Origin: Bacteroidales bacterium
Lineage (GTDB): Bacteria; Bacteroidota; Bacteroidia; Bacteroidales; Salinivirgaceae
NCBI GenBank assembly: GCA_012519055.1
Contig: JAAYQU010000026.1
Span: forward strand, 1 to 34,513
Length of the DNA: 34,513 nt
Reading direction: 5' to 3'
Shown here: positions 29,077 to 34,513 of the stretch, one piece after another
Layout of the letters: every line of letters begins with the position of its first letter
Numbering within the stretch: position 1 is the stretch's first letter
Notes under the pieces: model-generated
What the model saw: the letters and a program-made list of their open reading frames with translations, nothing else
Database searches by the model: none
What the model was told of the DNA's origin: nothing
Made by a program: the position numbers and the translations under genes

Positions 29077-29469
29077 ATGTATATTGATGTTTGCTGCGCA
29101 ATAATCAAAAAAGATGGAAAAATATTAGCTGCAAAACGTAAACCAATAGGTTTGCGAGGAGGAATGTGGGAGTTCCCGGGCGGGAAAATAGAGGAAAACG
29201 AAACACCCGAAGATTGTATTAAAAGAGAAATCATTGAAGAGTTGGGTATGAAAATTGAAATAATAAAAAAGCTCCCAACAGTCAAACATAGTTACCACGA
29301 TATAAATATCAGACTAACACCCTTTTTTGCATCTGCTTTATCTGAAATTACCCGATTAGAGAGTCACGAAAAAGCTGACTTTTTTGAAAAGAGCGAACTC
29401 TCAAACCTTAAATGGTCTGAAGCCGACCGTTTAGTTTTAAACCAATGGTTGAAAGAGTCAAATCGTTAA
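29077..29469 (+). CDS. Nudix hydrolase of the MutT type
   Basis: A 130-residue protein with a complete Nudix box at 36-58: a Gly, Glu42, then REIIEELG at 50-57, which fits GX5EX7REUXEEXGU. The opening VCCAIIKKDGKILAAKRKP and GLRGGMWEFPGGK are typical of MutT/8-oxo-dGTP diphosphatases, which clean the nucleotide pool of oxidised dGTP; other nucleotide substrates are possible. The start is the ATG 14 bases after the kinase stop, so both genes may be on one transcript. Confidence 0.9.
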   Translation: MYIDVCCAIIKKDGKILAAKRKPIGLRGGMWEFPGGKIEENETPEDCIKREIIEELGMKIEIIKKLPTVKHSYHDINIRLTPFFASALSEITRLESHEKADFFEKSELSNLKWSEADRLVLNQWLKESNR

Positions 29470-31034: not shown

Positions 31035-32987
31035 ATGTACCGAAAGATTCTTATTCTGTTTCTCCTAATAATGTCCCTGCAGTCGCAAGCACAACTTAAT
31101 GTTGCGTACTATATCGGCTCGGGGCGGTACGATTTGTATAAAGAGAACTATATAAGCGCAGTAGCCCGCTTTACAGCCGTTATAAATAGCAAGCCAAAAC
31201 TTACGGAAGCTTGGTTTTTACGTGGAATAGCCAAATATAATCTAAACGATTTTCGTGGTGCCATGGAAGACTTTTCAATGGCAATTAAGATAAATCCGTT
31301 CTATTCAGATGCATTTCACTACAGAGGATTAACATTTGAACAGTTGGGCGATTTCAACAATGCTAAAGAAGACCTGGCAGCGGCTATGGAGTTAAATCCT
31401 GCAAATAGCCATATATACGCCGATATGGGAGTAATTCACATTATGCACGAGGAGCATGAAAAGGCTTTGGAATATTTCAACGAATCGCTAAAAATAGAAA
31501 AGACATTGCCCGACACATATTTTAATCGTGCAATTAGCCACGTACACTTAGGAGATACCGTACAGGCAATCAATGACTTAAAAACAGGAATACGGTTAAA
31601 CCCTTTTTCAGCCGAAGCACTACGCAGATTGGCAATAATCCAATATGAACAAAAAAATTATTCCGAAGCAATTATAAACCTTAATCAAGCATTGAAGTTA
31701 GACGAGGGAAATACCCTGATAATGTTTCAGCGAGCAATATCGTACTACCAATTAGAGAATTTTGACAAGGCTTTAGACGACCTACAGGCTATTTTAAAGA
31801 TTGATTCCACAAATGCATTGGTTTACTATAATCGAGCTGTACTGCTCACTGAATTAGGTAGATACAACGAAGCTATTGACGACTATACAGAAGCTATAAA
31901 CAACAATCCCGACAATATTCTCACATATTACAATCGTGCAGGTGCAAAAATTGCACTCAACAATTATCAAGGGGCATTGTATGATTACAATCGCGCAATT
32001 GAAATCTTTCCTGATTTTGCAACTGCGTATTTAAATCGTAGTTATGTAAAACAGATGCTTGGCGACGACAAAGGCGCATACTTGGATCATTTGAAAGCCG
32101 AAGAGATGATTGCCAAATATCGGACAGATAGCTCCGACACAACAGAATACGCCCAACTTCGTGATACAGCGGCGGATCTAAAACAAATGCTCGATTTTAA
32201 TAGCGAGTTTAGCAACAGCTTTACGCGTGGAAGAATACAAAATCAAGCCGTTGACATAAAGTTACAGCCAAACTATTCGGTTCAAGTTGCTAAGGTTCCG
32301 CCTGCAGAAAATTTGCCATTTATTAGTTCATTTTTTGCATATAATCAATCCGATGAGCATACAAACAATATATATCCTCGCTTGATGGTTAAGGATACTA
32401 CAGCTGCTCAGCCCTCAACTGTTGACTCATTGCTACAACCAGAACTCTTTATTGTTCAGAAAGTTATAGCGCAAGCTCAACAAGCAAATTATAATAAAGC
32501 ACTTGAACTGCTACGAGAATCCAAAGAGGTTTTTAAAACATTGTGGTTATACTATTTCCTTGAGGGAACCATAGAAGCCTCAATGGCTGAATATGTTTTT
32601 TCTATGTCGGAAATATCAACAACAATAAAGCTTACTGAAGATAAAACAACGTACCGCGCAACAAGTGACACCAGAACGGTTGTTGACTACAGCAAAGCCG
32701 AACAGGGGCTGAATAACTCAATTGAGCTGAATCCCAATTTCTCGTTATGTTACTATAACAAAGCAAATATTATGGCTTTATCGCAACGGTTTCGCGAGGC
32801 AATAGACGACTATTCAAAAGCAATAAGTATTGACGAAAGTTTACCACAAGCCTACTATAATCGAGGTCTTACCTTAATTTATCTAAAAGAGGTTGAGCGT
32901 GGATGTTTAGATATCAGTAAAGCTGGTCAACTTGGAATATCCGATTCCTATAATGTTATTAAACGATATTGTGAAACAAAAAAATAG
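31035..32987 (+). CDS. Large TPR-repeat protein, exported
   Basis: A 650-residue protein with a signal peptide (about 1-20, ending LQSQAQ), then about nine tandem TPR repeats (about 21-360), recognisable by the spacing of A..YN...F..A..DY/F and the Asn/Pro breaks (INPFYSDAFHYRGL, LNPANSHIYADMG, NNPDNILTYYNRAG). A less regular middle (about 360-560) and two or three further TPRs near the end (about 570-640). I chose the ATG at 31035, not the upstream TTG, because it gives a clean signal peptide. Probably a periplasmic or outer-membrane scaffold. The last base of its stop codon overlaps the possible GTG start of the next gene. Confidence 0.82.
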   Translation: MYRKILILFLLIMSLQSQAQLNVAYYIGSGRYDLYKENYISAVARFTAVINSKPKLTEAWFLRGIAKYNLNDFRGAMEDFSMAIKINPFYSDAFHYRGLTFEQLGDFNNAKEDLAAAMELNPANSHIYADMGVIHIMHEEHEKALEYFNESLKIEKTLPDTYFNRAISHVHLGDTVQAINDLKTGIRLNPFSAEALRRLAIIQYEQKNYSEAIINLNQALKLDEGNTLIMFQRAISYYQLENFDKALDDLQAILKIDSTNALVYYNRAVLLTELGRYNEAIDDYTEAINNNPDNILTYYNRAGAKIALNNYQGALYDYNRAIEIFPDFATAYLNRSYVKQMLGDDKGAYLDHLKAEEMIAKYRTDSSDTTEYAQLRDTAADLKQMLDFNSEFSNSFTRGRIQNQAVDIKLQPNYSVQVAKVPPAENLPFISSFFAYNQSDEHTNNIYPRLMVKDTTAAQPSTVDSLLQPELFIVQKVIAQAQQANYNKALELLRESKEVFKTLWLYYFLEGTIEASMAEYVFSMSEISTTIKLTEDKTTYRATSDTRTVVDYSKAEQGLNNSIELNPNFSLCYYNKANIMALSQRFREAIDDYSKAISIDESLPQAYYNRGLTLIYLKEVERGCLDISKAGQLGISDSYNVIKRYCETKK

Positions 32988-32992
32988 TGAAA

Positions 32993-33481
32993 ATGATTGG
33001 ACAAGAGATTGTTTATAATTACCTGAAAGAGCTTGGAATTGAATTTGAATACTACGAACACCCACCAATACCAACAATAGAAGATGCCAAAATTCACAAA
33101 TGGTGGTTAGACGCAGTATTTTGTAAAAACATCTTTTTTAGAAATCATAAGGGAAATCGTCATTATCTGGTGATAGTACATCACGATGCTCAATTAGAAA
33201 TCAGTGCTCTTGAAAAAAAACTAAAACAAGGGAAACTCACGTTTGCATCAGAAAAACGAATGACAAAATATTTAGGATTAATGCCCGGCTCCGTCTCCCC
33301 TTTTGGACTTCTCAACGATAAAGAAAACCACGTACACACATTTTTTGATCCTGCACTAAAAGAAGCCGAAAAGCTTAGTTTCCACCCAAATGACAACAGA
33401 GCCACCATAGTTTTAAAATCCGAAGATTTTTGGAAATATATGAACTCTTTAAAAAACAGTTACGAGTTTATGGAGTTTTAA
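32993..33481 (+). CDS. ProX/PrdX-type prolyl-tRNA editing protein
   Basis: A 162-residue YbaK/EbsC-fold protein. Phrases that fit the ProX/PrdX group are EYYEHPPIPTIEDA at the start, KNIFFRNHKGNRHYLVIVHHD, and LMPGSVSPFGLLNDKENHVH with the conserved GSVSPFG loop. These proteins remove alanine or cysteine misattached to tRNA-Pro; which one here is not known. The start is either ATG at 32993 or GTG at 32987 (two residues longer), which overlaps the TPR gene's stop by one base, suggesting translation coupling. A gene-free stretch with a TPP riboswitch follows. Confidence 0.88.
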   Translation: MIGQEIVYNYLKELGIEFEYYEHPPIPTIEDAKIHKWWLDAVFCKNIFFRNHKGNRHYLVIVHHDAQLEISALEKKLKQGKLTFASEKRMTKYLGLMPGSVSPFGLLNDKENHVHTFFDPALKEAEKLSFHPNDNRATIVLKSEDFWKYMNSLKNSYEFMEF

Positions 33482-33627: not shown

Positions 33628-33635
33628 TAACTTTG
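33628..33635 (+). promoter_or_regulatory. Candidate -7 box upstream of the TPP riboswitch
   Basis: TAACTTTG is an exact match to TAnnTTTG and lies 16 bases before the riboswitch starts, so the transcript would begin just before the aptamer. The -33 element is weak. Confidence 0.55.
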
Positions 33636-33650
33636 TCACCGATATAATAC

Positions 33651-33725
33651 AATGGGGTGCCTTACTTTCAGGCTGAGATCATACCCTTAGAACCTGATCC
33701 GGATAATGCCGGCGAAGGGAAAAGT
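33651..33725 (+). promoter_or_regulatory. TPP riboswitch (THI element)
   Basis: The conserved aptamer parts are present in order: GGGGTGCC (33654-33661), GGCTGAGA (33671-33678), ACCC (33682-33685), GAACCTGATCCGGATAATGCC (33690-33710 with adjacent GGCG) and AAGGGA. It binds thiamin pyrophosphate and lowers expression of the gene behind it. It lies 62 bases ahead of a TonB-dependent receptor gene, so the receptor is expected to be repressed when TPP is plentiful. Confidence 0.97.
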
Positions 33726-33750
33726 TTTTCGTATCTCATTTTTTTTATCT

Positions 33751-33783
33751 CCCCATTGCTTTTTGTTAAACTATAAAAGCAAT
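33751..33783 (+). promoter_or_regulatory. Candidate expression platform: start-proximal hairpin and alternative pairing
   Basis: ATTGCTTTT (33755-33763) pairs perfectly with AAAAGCAAT (33775-33783), a hairpin ending four bases before the ATG at 33788, so it could hide the translation start. CCCCATT (33751-33757) overlaps its left arm and is fully complementary to AATGGGG at the aptamer's 5' edge (33651-33657). Confidence 0.6.
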
Positions 33784-33787
33784 AGAA

Positions 33788-34513
33788 ATGAAACATTACT
33801 TTTTAACAATTCTTGTCGCAATGAGCGTAACCAGCTCTATGGCTCAATTTTCCTTAAGTGGAAAAATCACAACAACCGAAGGTCGCCCACTTGAAGGCGC
33901 AAACGTATTTGTTGAAAAACTGGAAACAGGTACAGTAACGAACCACGAAGGTAGATTTACATTAACAAATCTACCTGAGAATGAGGAGTTAGTGACAGTT
34001 TATAGTTATTTGGGATTTAGACCCGAAAAACGCACAATTGTCCTAAAAAATGATTACTATATTGAAATTCAATTAGAAACACAAGCCTATACAGCTCAGG
34101 AAGTTATTGTATCGGCTTTGAGAGCTTCAGAAAACACCCCGGTAAGCCACCATACTATTGATTACAAAACAATAAAAGAGAAAAACAGCGGTCAGGAAAT
34201 ACCGTATCTATTACAACTCACACCATCATTAGTTGCATCATCTGATGCAGGAACGGGGATTGGATACTCAAGTTTTAGAATTCGCGGTGTTGATATGACA
34301 CGAATAAATATCACGATTAACGATATTCCGCTCAATGATGCCGAGTCGCATAGCGTGTTTTTAGTAAATATGCCCGATTTTATTGAAAGTGTCAACAGCA
34401 TTCAAATTCAACGTGGTGTTGGAACATCGTCGAATGGGGCTGCTGCTTTCGGTGCCTCAGTAAATATGCAGACTAACAGTCTGAGCCACAAAGCATTTGC
34501 TGAAATAAATAAC
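33788..34513 (+). CDS. TPP-riboswitch-controlled TonB-dependent receptor (3' end outside window)
   Basis: The first 242 residues of a TonB-dependent outer-membrane receptor; the frame is open to the window edge. Signal peptide 1-19 (ending SSMAQ), carboxypeptidase-regulatory-like domain (about 21-105, GKITTTEGRPLEGANVFVE, TNHEGRFTLTNLP), then the plug domain (about 125-240, TPSLVASSDAGTGIG, FRIRGVDMTRINITINDIPLNDAESH, VNSIQIQRGVGTSSNG). The TPP riboswitch ahead of it makes thiamin or its phosphates the likely substrate; TPP-regulated receptors of this kind are known in Bacteroidota and are often followed by pnuT and other thiamin genes, which would lie outside the window. Confidence 0.93.
   Translation, partial: MKHYFLTILVAMSVTSSMAQFSLSGKITTTEGRPLEGANVFVEKLETGTVTNHEGRFTLTNLPENEELVTVYSYLGFRPEKRTIVLKNDYYIEIQLETQAYTAQEVIVSALRASENTPVSHHTIDYKTIKEKNSGQEIPYLLQLTPSLVASSDAGTGIGYSSFRIRGVDMTRINITINDIPLNDAESHSVFLVNMPDFIESVNSIQIQRGVGTSSNGAAAFGASVNMQTNSLSHKAFAEINN

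Follow-up and report, generated by a model that had tools for sequence, protein, structure and literature searches.

The leader of a TonB-dependent receptor gene from a Bacteroidales genome of the family Salinivirgaceae carries a TPP riboswitch aptamer and, downstream of it, one strand that can pair either with the 5' edge of the aptamer or with an arm lying four bases before the start codon. We think it probable that this leader is a TPP-off, three-strand translational switch of the anti-P1 type, working with no Shine-Dalgarno sequence to mask. The DNA analysed is a stretch of 34,513 nucleotides, hereafter called the window, and the features on which the argument turns are as follows.

33628-33635, forward strand: match TAACTTTG to the Bacteroidota -7 promoter box TAnnTTTG
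33643-33738, forward strand: TPP riboswitch aptamer (RF00059), matched over the full model 1-105 with 69.7 bits (gathering score, 54.3)
33650-33657, forward strand: aptamer 5' edge CAATGGGG, the first switch strand, engaged in one P1 and three P2 pairs
33751-33758, forward strand: second switch strand CCCCATTG, exact complement of 33650-33657
33755-33763, forward strand: 5' arm of the start hairpin, ATTGCTTTT, with ATTG at 33755-33758 common to the switch strand
33764-33774, forward strand: hairpin loop of 11 nt, containing GTTAAAC
33775-33783, forward strand: 3' arm of the start hairpin, AAAAGCAAT, the third strand, ending 4 nt before the ATG
33788-34513, forward strand: first 242 codons of the TonB-dependent receptor, ATG at 33788; the contig ends inside the gene

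The aptamer was assigned to RF00059 by the covariance model over its whole length together with the conserved core, CTGAGA and GAACCTGATCCGG both being visible in the alignment. No other Rfam family exceeded its gathering score anywhere in the window, and this aptamer is the single TPP element detected in the window's own genome. From its sequence it would be expected to bind TPP. Of the five P1 pairs in the Rfam alignment, only two are standard in the window. The initial annotation had taken AATGGGG for the first bases of the aptamer; it does lie in the aptamer's 5' strand, but the Rfam match starts at 33643 and AATGGGG is the 5' strand of P1/P2.

The receptor fragment matched the Pfam domains CarbopepD_reg_2 (1e-17) and Plug (1.1e-11), and homologues from the same genus measure 814 aa (G001, L094) and 815 aa (G002, L095). 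A TonB-dependent receptor behind a TPP element is the arrangement of the OMthi type, and the putative cargo is thiamine or thiamine phosphate. The upstream neighbours, at 32987-33481 and 29077-29469, encode an aminoacyl-tRNA editing domain protein and a NUDIX hydrolase. On the forward strand between 33480 and 33900 no intrinsic terminator (G+C-rich hairpin plus T run) was found, the one terminator-like site of this region being on the reverse strand, and the intrinsic-terminator class of riboswitch was rejected on the ground that the coding strand has no terminator there. Reading of the sequence revealed no GGAG-like Shine-Dalgarno motif in 33751-33787; the Shine-Dalgarno-sequestering class, represented by thiM and thiC of E. 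coli, was set aside because there is no such motif to hide.

The riboswitch and its two pairings were confirmed, and the positions originally given for AATGGGG (33651-33657), CCCCATT (33751-33757), the hairpin (33755-33763 with 33775-33783) and the ATG (33788) were correct. The perfect complement, first described as seven bases long, is real and extends to 8 bp, joining 33650-33657 to 33751-33758; this pairing is called the lock below. As had been stated, CCCCATT overlaps a 9-bp hairpin, 33755-33763 with 33775-33783, that ends four bases before the ATG. ATTG at 33755-33758 takes part in both pairings, and the word CAAT is present in the aptamer edge as well as in the 3' arm of the hairpin, so that edge and arm are rivals for one set of four bases. 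Formation of the lock costs the aptamer the pair 33650-33724 and the pairs of 33654, 33655 and 33656 with 33686, 33685 and 33684, respectively. An additional pairing that would cover the AUG (approximately 33735-33742 with 33784-33791) is not claimed, since by eye it was lacking in G002 and short in G001. Many receptor leaders have the loop motif, as GTTTAAC or GTTAAAC, about 15-35 nt 5' of the ATG, often within a hairpin loop (by eye, uncounted); it is possibly a common feature of receptor 5' ends.

Chance levels were estimated from 20000 dinucleotide shuffles of 33725-33787, with thresholds that were chosen after the sequence had been seen. An exact complement of at least 8 to some part of 33643-33662 arose in 205 shuffles, a 9-bp hairpin ending at most 6 nt from the ATG in 79, and the two jointly in 1; none of the 20000 had them jointly and overlapping.

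Two further genomes of the genus were examined, G001 and G002, and each keeps both pairings; their receptors are 54% and 62% identical, respectively, to that of the window over the compared N-terminal part. In G002 the edge CAGTGGGG pairs with CCCCATTG and the hairpin arms (ATTGCTTTT and AAAAGCAAT) are identical to those of the window. In G001 the edge CAATGGG pairs with CCCATTG, and the arms, ATTGCTTTA and TAAAGCAAT, carry a double change from T-A to A-T.

Covariation of the start hairpin was followed in 15 leaders with the geometry of the window, forming 12 distinct rows: the window, G001, G002, G025, G088, G055, G078, L139 (Mariniphaga anaerophila), L144 (a Mariniphaga MAG), L177 (Draconibacterium mangrovi), and five Prolixibacteraceae MAGs (L100, L102, L107, L119 and L124). 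Leaders and arms were chosen by hand, a choice that leans towards structure, and in this set 91.7% of the cells of the arms pair. Changes on both sides were seen in four of the nine hairpin pairs of the hand-chosen set, a number reached by 9 of 500 shuffles, and the pair at window positions 33759-33779 occurs as C-G, G-C, A-U and G-U. The covariation score of the same hand-chosen set was 0.364 versus 0.130 (sd 0.034; 0 of 500 shuffles), and it fell to 0.155 or 0.081 when the partner was slid by one position. Covariation is silent on whether the change is driven by TPP.

The sister genus of the same family, represented by G003, G004 and G005, keeps the edge pairing, GCAATCGGGGG with CCCCCCATTGC, with one mismatch. 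The hairpin before the ATG is absent in all three of these genomes. The best start-region partner in G004 is ATTGCAT with GTGCAAT just 3' of the AUG (rank 0.35 among start regions), and that of G003 lies in the codons, at +30 to +42 (rank 0.17); G005 had no convincing start-region partner (rank 0.50).

To extend the comparison to the order we drew on 104 listed TPP places in 99 genomes, from which 90 were taken, namely all 85 above the cut-off and five of the 19 below it. Fifty-eight of these 90 loci lead into a homologous receptor with a usable start. The other 32 are not receptor leaders, and 31 of them were analysed, L034 having no frame. The box TAnnTTTG, which we take to be the consensus of the Bacteroidota -7 promoter box, lies at most 40 nt 5' of the aptamer GGGG in 50 of the 58 receptor leaders, against 96 of 3173 background 40-nt windows (3.0%). 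With its match at 33628-33635, transcription of the window's leader would therefore be predicted to begin, probably, at a putative start site a few bases 5' of the aptamer and the lock strand.

In the edge test, platforms were scored by their duplex energy with the aptamer edge (9 nt plus the 6 that start at GGGG), and own combinations were compared with re-paired ones. Such swap tests need no alignment, and they were used since MAFFT had misaligned the platform in 4 of 15 whole leaders (by eye). Over the 58 receptor leaders the own edge/platform energies summed to -663.4 kcal/mol, versus -538.8 (sd 14.8) for the permuted combinations, and none of 20000 re-pairings reached the own sum. The result held with one leader per family (n = 53, z = -7.44, 0 of 20000) and with the window's family removed (n = 52, 0 of 20000). 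Taken singly against shuffled platforms, 24 of the 58 leaders gave p ≤ 0.05 and 8 gave p ≤ 0.01, the window's edge pairing alone giving p = 0.020. The 31 non-receptor TPP leaders behaved in the same way (z = -5.81, 0 of 20000). By eye, some of them (L029, L032, L044, L057, L086 and L089) have a T run behind a G+C hairpin, so the order seems to contain TPP switches of the terminator type as well as of the start-mask type.

These data bear on the explanation that both complementarities are products of chance, the leader being rich in A+T and its GGGG invariant. In any leader the GGGG will pair with a CCCC, and some leaders (for example L020, L085 and L033) have weak or odd matches, as this explanation would lead one to expect. 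The swap tests, however, retain the GGGG that is common to nearly all leaders and still gave 0 of 20000, and the shuffles of the window itself and the double changes in the hairpin point the same way. We give chance almost no credence. The initial annotation had named the loss of both pairings from related leaders as the outcome that would count against its scheme; what was found instead is that G001 and G002 keep both and that own combinations surpass every one of 20000 swaps across the order.

The second pairing was examined in a start test, in which the switch strand plus 8 nt was matched against the region from -19 to +48 of its own and of other genes. It took the 52 of the 58 leaders whose best edge match lies 28-62 nt before the ATG, the other six being dropped. 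The own strand/start-region sum was -471.6 versus -347.8 (sd 15.7; z = -7.90, 0 of 20000), and with one leader per family the outcome was similar (n = 47, z = -7.62, 0 of 20000). When the target began 3 nt after the strand, z was -9.02 (n = 52) and -8.52 (n = 47), both with 0 of 20000. Shifting the target by +60, +120, +200 and +300 gave z values of -1.84, -1.74, -1.31 and +0.74, which were reached in 167, 230, 482 and 3806 of 5000 permutations, leaving a weak residue at +60 and +120. The non-receptor leaders also passed the start test (n = 19, z = -3.44, 18 of 20000).

Twenty-four of the 52 leaders fell within the best 20% on both tests, where about 2 would be expected if the tests were independent. 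In all 24 the two pairings have at least 4 nt in common, so the two pairings compete. When the longest helix is used to place the second partner, 10 of these leaders have it upstream of the AUG, 6 have it touching the AUG and 8 have it wholly within the codons. Examples of second partners are AACCTCATT with AATGAGGTT over the AUG in G020, TCATTACAA with TTGTAATGA in G090, and CATTGTAATAAAG with CTTTATTTACAATG in the codons of G074. Placement by the outermost pair (6 upstream, 10 over the AUG, 8 in codons) was dropped because it miscounted G001 as over the AUG: that leader has the window's hairpin, and a small extra helix had put its outermost pair over the AUG. The start-region pairing of the window ranked 0.21 when compared with the start regions of other leaders and 0.37 when compared with their switch strands, outside the 20% cut, so the window is not among the 24.

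An independent named set was assembled from 80 loci, 28 of which had the aptamer pattern. After removal of L127, a match inside coding sequence, and of two leaders already in the genome set, 25 were analysed; 19 remained once rows with alike platform ends had been dropped, and 15 were available for the start test. The scheme of the initial annotation was replicated here in one of its halves. The edge pairing held (n = 19, z = -3.28, 16 of 20000), but the start-region pairing was not significant in this small set, in which several leaders have another geometry (n = 15, 2469 of 20000). The fixed target region was rejected as the cause, a wider target still giving 2732 of 20000. A second geometry, recognised by eye in L014, L028, L121, L153, L175 and L077 and also in L117, L128 and L147, places the edge-complementary strand in the loop of a separate hairpin, for example TGAATGG...CCCTATTA...CCATTCA in L153.

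Taken with the comparisons within the genus, the order-wide tests support the proposed switch, with the qualification that the hairpin before the ATG is just one among several forms taken by the start mask. We are inclined to think that the TPP riboswitches of Bacteroidales share a common design free of Shine-Dalgarno sequences, in which a single strand, situated some 30-60 nt ahead of the AUG, stays complementary to its own aptamer edge and equally to a segment near its own AUG. The second segment would have drifted from upstream of the AUG to over it and into the first 16 codons, the logic being conserved and the position of the mask not.

How the two pairings might follow one another was explored with a folding model of the ligand-free equilibrium, in which the TPP-bound aptamer is not represented. 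For growing window transcripts, the probability of the lock (pair 33654-33754) was 0.94 at 33757 and 1.00 over 33761-33777. It yielded as the 3' arm emerged, being 0.96 at 33781 and 0.43 at 33785, and in longer transcripts the lock stood at 0.03-0.22 and the hairpin (pair 33759-33779) at 0.93-0.99. Of 10 leaders with the window's geometry, 9 had a lock probability (highest pair) of 0.99 or more before the 3' arm was made; the value of the tenth, G078, is read through a bulge and is not meaningful. The balance between lock and hairpin after the 3' arm differed by leader. An equilibrium-only version of the switch fails for the window, the finished ligand-free leader sitting in the hairpin state. 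The earlier statement that the hairpin is broken without TPP is accordingly right, in the model, for the interval before the 3' arm is transcribed and wrong for the finished leader, which is mostly hairpin. The choice between lock and hairpin is probably made during transcription, by strand exchange at ATTG/CAAT, because the lock is favoured in modelled ligand-free folding only as long as the 3' arm has yet to be made.

We propose the following sequence of events. When TPP is scarce, the nascent switch strand (33751-33758) would capture the aptamer edge (33650-33657) before the 3' arm is made, breaking P1/P2 and locking TPP out; the start would stay open and the receptor would be made. When TPP is plentiful, the aptamer would already be locked in its own fold, and the 3' half of the switch strand would pair with the arm at 33775-33783, giving a hairpin whose closed part stops 4 nt short of the AUG and which hinders initiation. 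The mask would act on the open region around the AUG, since the sequence offers no Shine-Dalgarno motif.

The folding results also suit a reading in which the edge pairing is a genuine lock and the ATG-proximal hairpin is permanent and does not switch, TPP acting through the state of the aptamer only. The finished leader keeps its hairpin at equilibrium, GGGG:CCCC and the hairpin can partly coexist with only ATTG (33755-33758) in common, lock and hairpin are predicted together in G002 and Mariniphaga, and the start-region pairing was not significant in the named set. A permanent hairpin is difficult to reconcile with the covariation of the same strand with the start region across 52 leaders and with the overlap of at least 4 nt in each of the 24 leaders strong on both tests, and we regard it as quite improbable.

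A mechanism acting on transcription was weighed as well, in which TPP frees the C-rich switch strand, translation slows and Rho terminates in the early receptor gene, the hairpin being secondary. The freed strand is indeed C-rich, with CCCC in the window and CCCCCC in G003-G005; E. coli thiC is reported to act on transcription as well as translation (PMC5234074); and non-receptor TPP leaders such as L029, L044, L057 and L089 show, by eye, the G+C hairpins with T runs mentioned above. Against this stand the terminator-free forward strand of the window, the mRNA of B. thetaiotaomicron OMthi, for which no significant response to thiamine is reported (PMC5613172), and the covariation of switch strand and start region, which points to a start mask. 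Control through transcription thus seems to us unlikely, and we retain the translational three-strand switch.

The surroundings of the receptor were considered in the light of thiamine metabolism in the family. Neither ThiC (PF01964) nor thiamine pyrophosphokinase (PF04263, TIGR01378) had a match in any of six family genomes (G000-G005), and ThiL was present in all six. Each of these genomes has one TPP element, ahead of a receptor homologous to that of the window. In the window's own genome (100% complete) ThiE (PF02581) had no match, and a single transporter of the PnuC type is present. The family may rely on thiamine phosphates taken up from outside, or it may have a kinase of an unrecognised kind. 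Downstream of the receptor in G001, the first frame on the same strand that reaches 120 aa (L094:3647-4063) encodes YjbQ, a secondary thiamine-phosphate synthase (TIGR00149, 1.4e-32), a neighbour that hints at a link between thiamine-phosphate metabolism and the receptor.

Within the phylum the closest known case is OMthi (BT2390) of B. thetaiotaomicron, where a TPP element precedes a putative outer-membrane TonB-dependent thiamine receptor (PMC5613172, PMC7366714); the window resembles it in having a TPP element ahead of a TonB-dependent receptor. The OMthi and pnuT transcripts are reported to show no significant change with thiamine, and the mode of action of TPP riboswitches in Bacteroidetes is called uncertain (PMC5613172). 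In an RNA-seq survey including Bacteroides data, 6 of 57 TPP riboswitches were transcriptionally active under the conditions tested, none of them from Bacteroides (PMC12121620). The phylum is generally without Shine-Dalgarno sequences (PMC6847099, PMC3155529), and in Flavobacterium johnsoniae structure close to the start codon tunes initiation (PMC6847099). Among the matches listed, no open-access title or abstract opening described the pairing reported here; subscription papers and preprints lay outside the scope. Control of transcription or translation in Bacteroides is reportedly, by its title, the subject of a preprint from 2019 (Costliow, Degnan and Vanderpool, bioRxiv 867226). The present analysis addresses how riboswitches shut translation in a phylum without Shine-Dalgarno sequences. 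In a three-strand switch the arms can be mutated singly and jointly, which makes the question directly testable, and the start mask can be predicted from sequence. For gut and environmental Bacteroidota, the leaders are candidates for translation modules tunable by thiamine.

The thiM riboswitch of E. coli is a translational TPP-off switch that uses an alternative pairing with the aptamer and sequesters the Shine-Dalgarno sequence. The window, as proposed, would likewise be a translational TPP-off switch by alternative aptamer pairing; unlike thiM, it has no Shine-Dalgarno sequence to sequester. The nearer parallel is E. coli thiC. There, an anti-P1 stem that forms without TPP is reported to be incompatible with P1 and with the start-hiding stem alike (PMC5234074); it gains stability in a nascent complex that has been stalled, and once the RNA is full length it does not predominate in the absence of TPP, presumably through a shift to the sequestering stem. 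At the level of sequence and model, the window likewise has a ligand-free pairing that excludes the aptamer helices and the sequestering stem. The latter lies at the translation start, 4 nt before the ATG, and its strand covaries with the start region, the named set giving a non-significant result. As in thiC, the lock of the window is favoured in nascent RNA and not at full length, in our model. Unlike thiC, which by that account hides the ribosome-binding site and AUG and also controls transcription, the window has no Shine-Dalgarno sequence. The mechanism extends the anti-P1 logic of E. coli and is not a new principle. Its newest part is the variable position of the start mask: unlike the thiC stem as described there, the masking partner in the window's relatives lies before, over or after the AUG.
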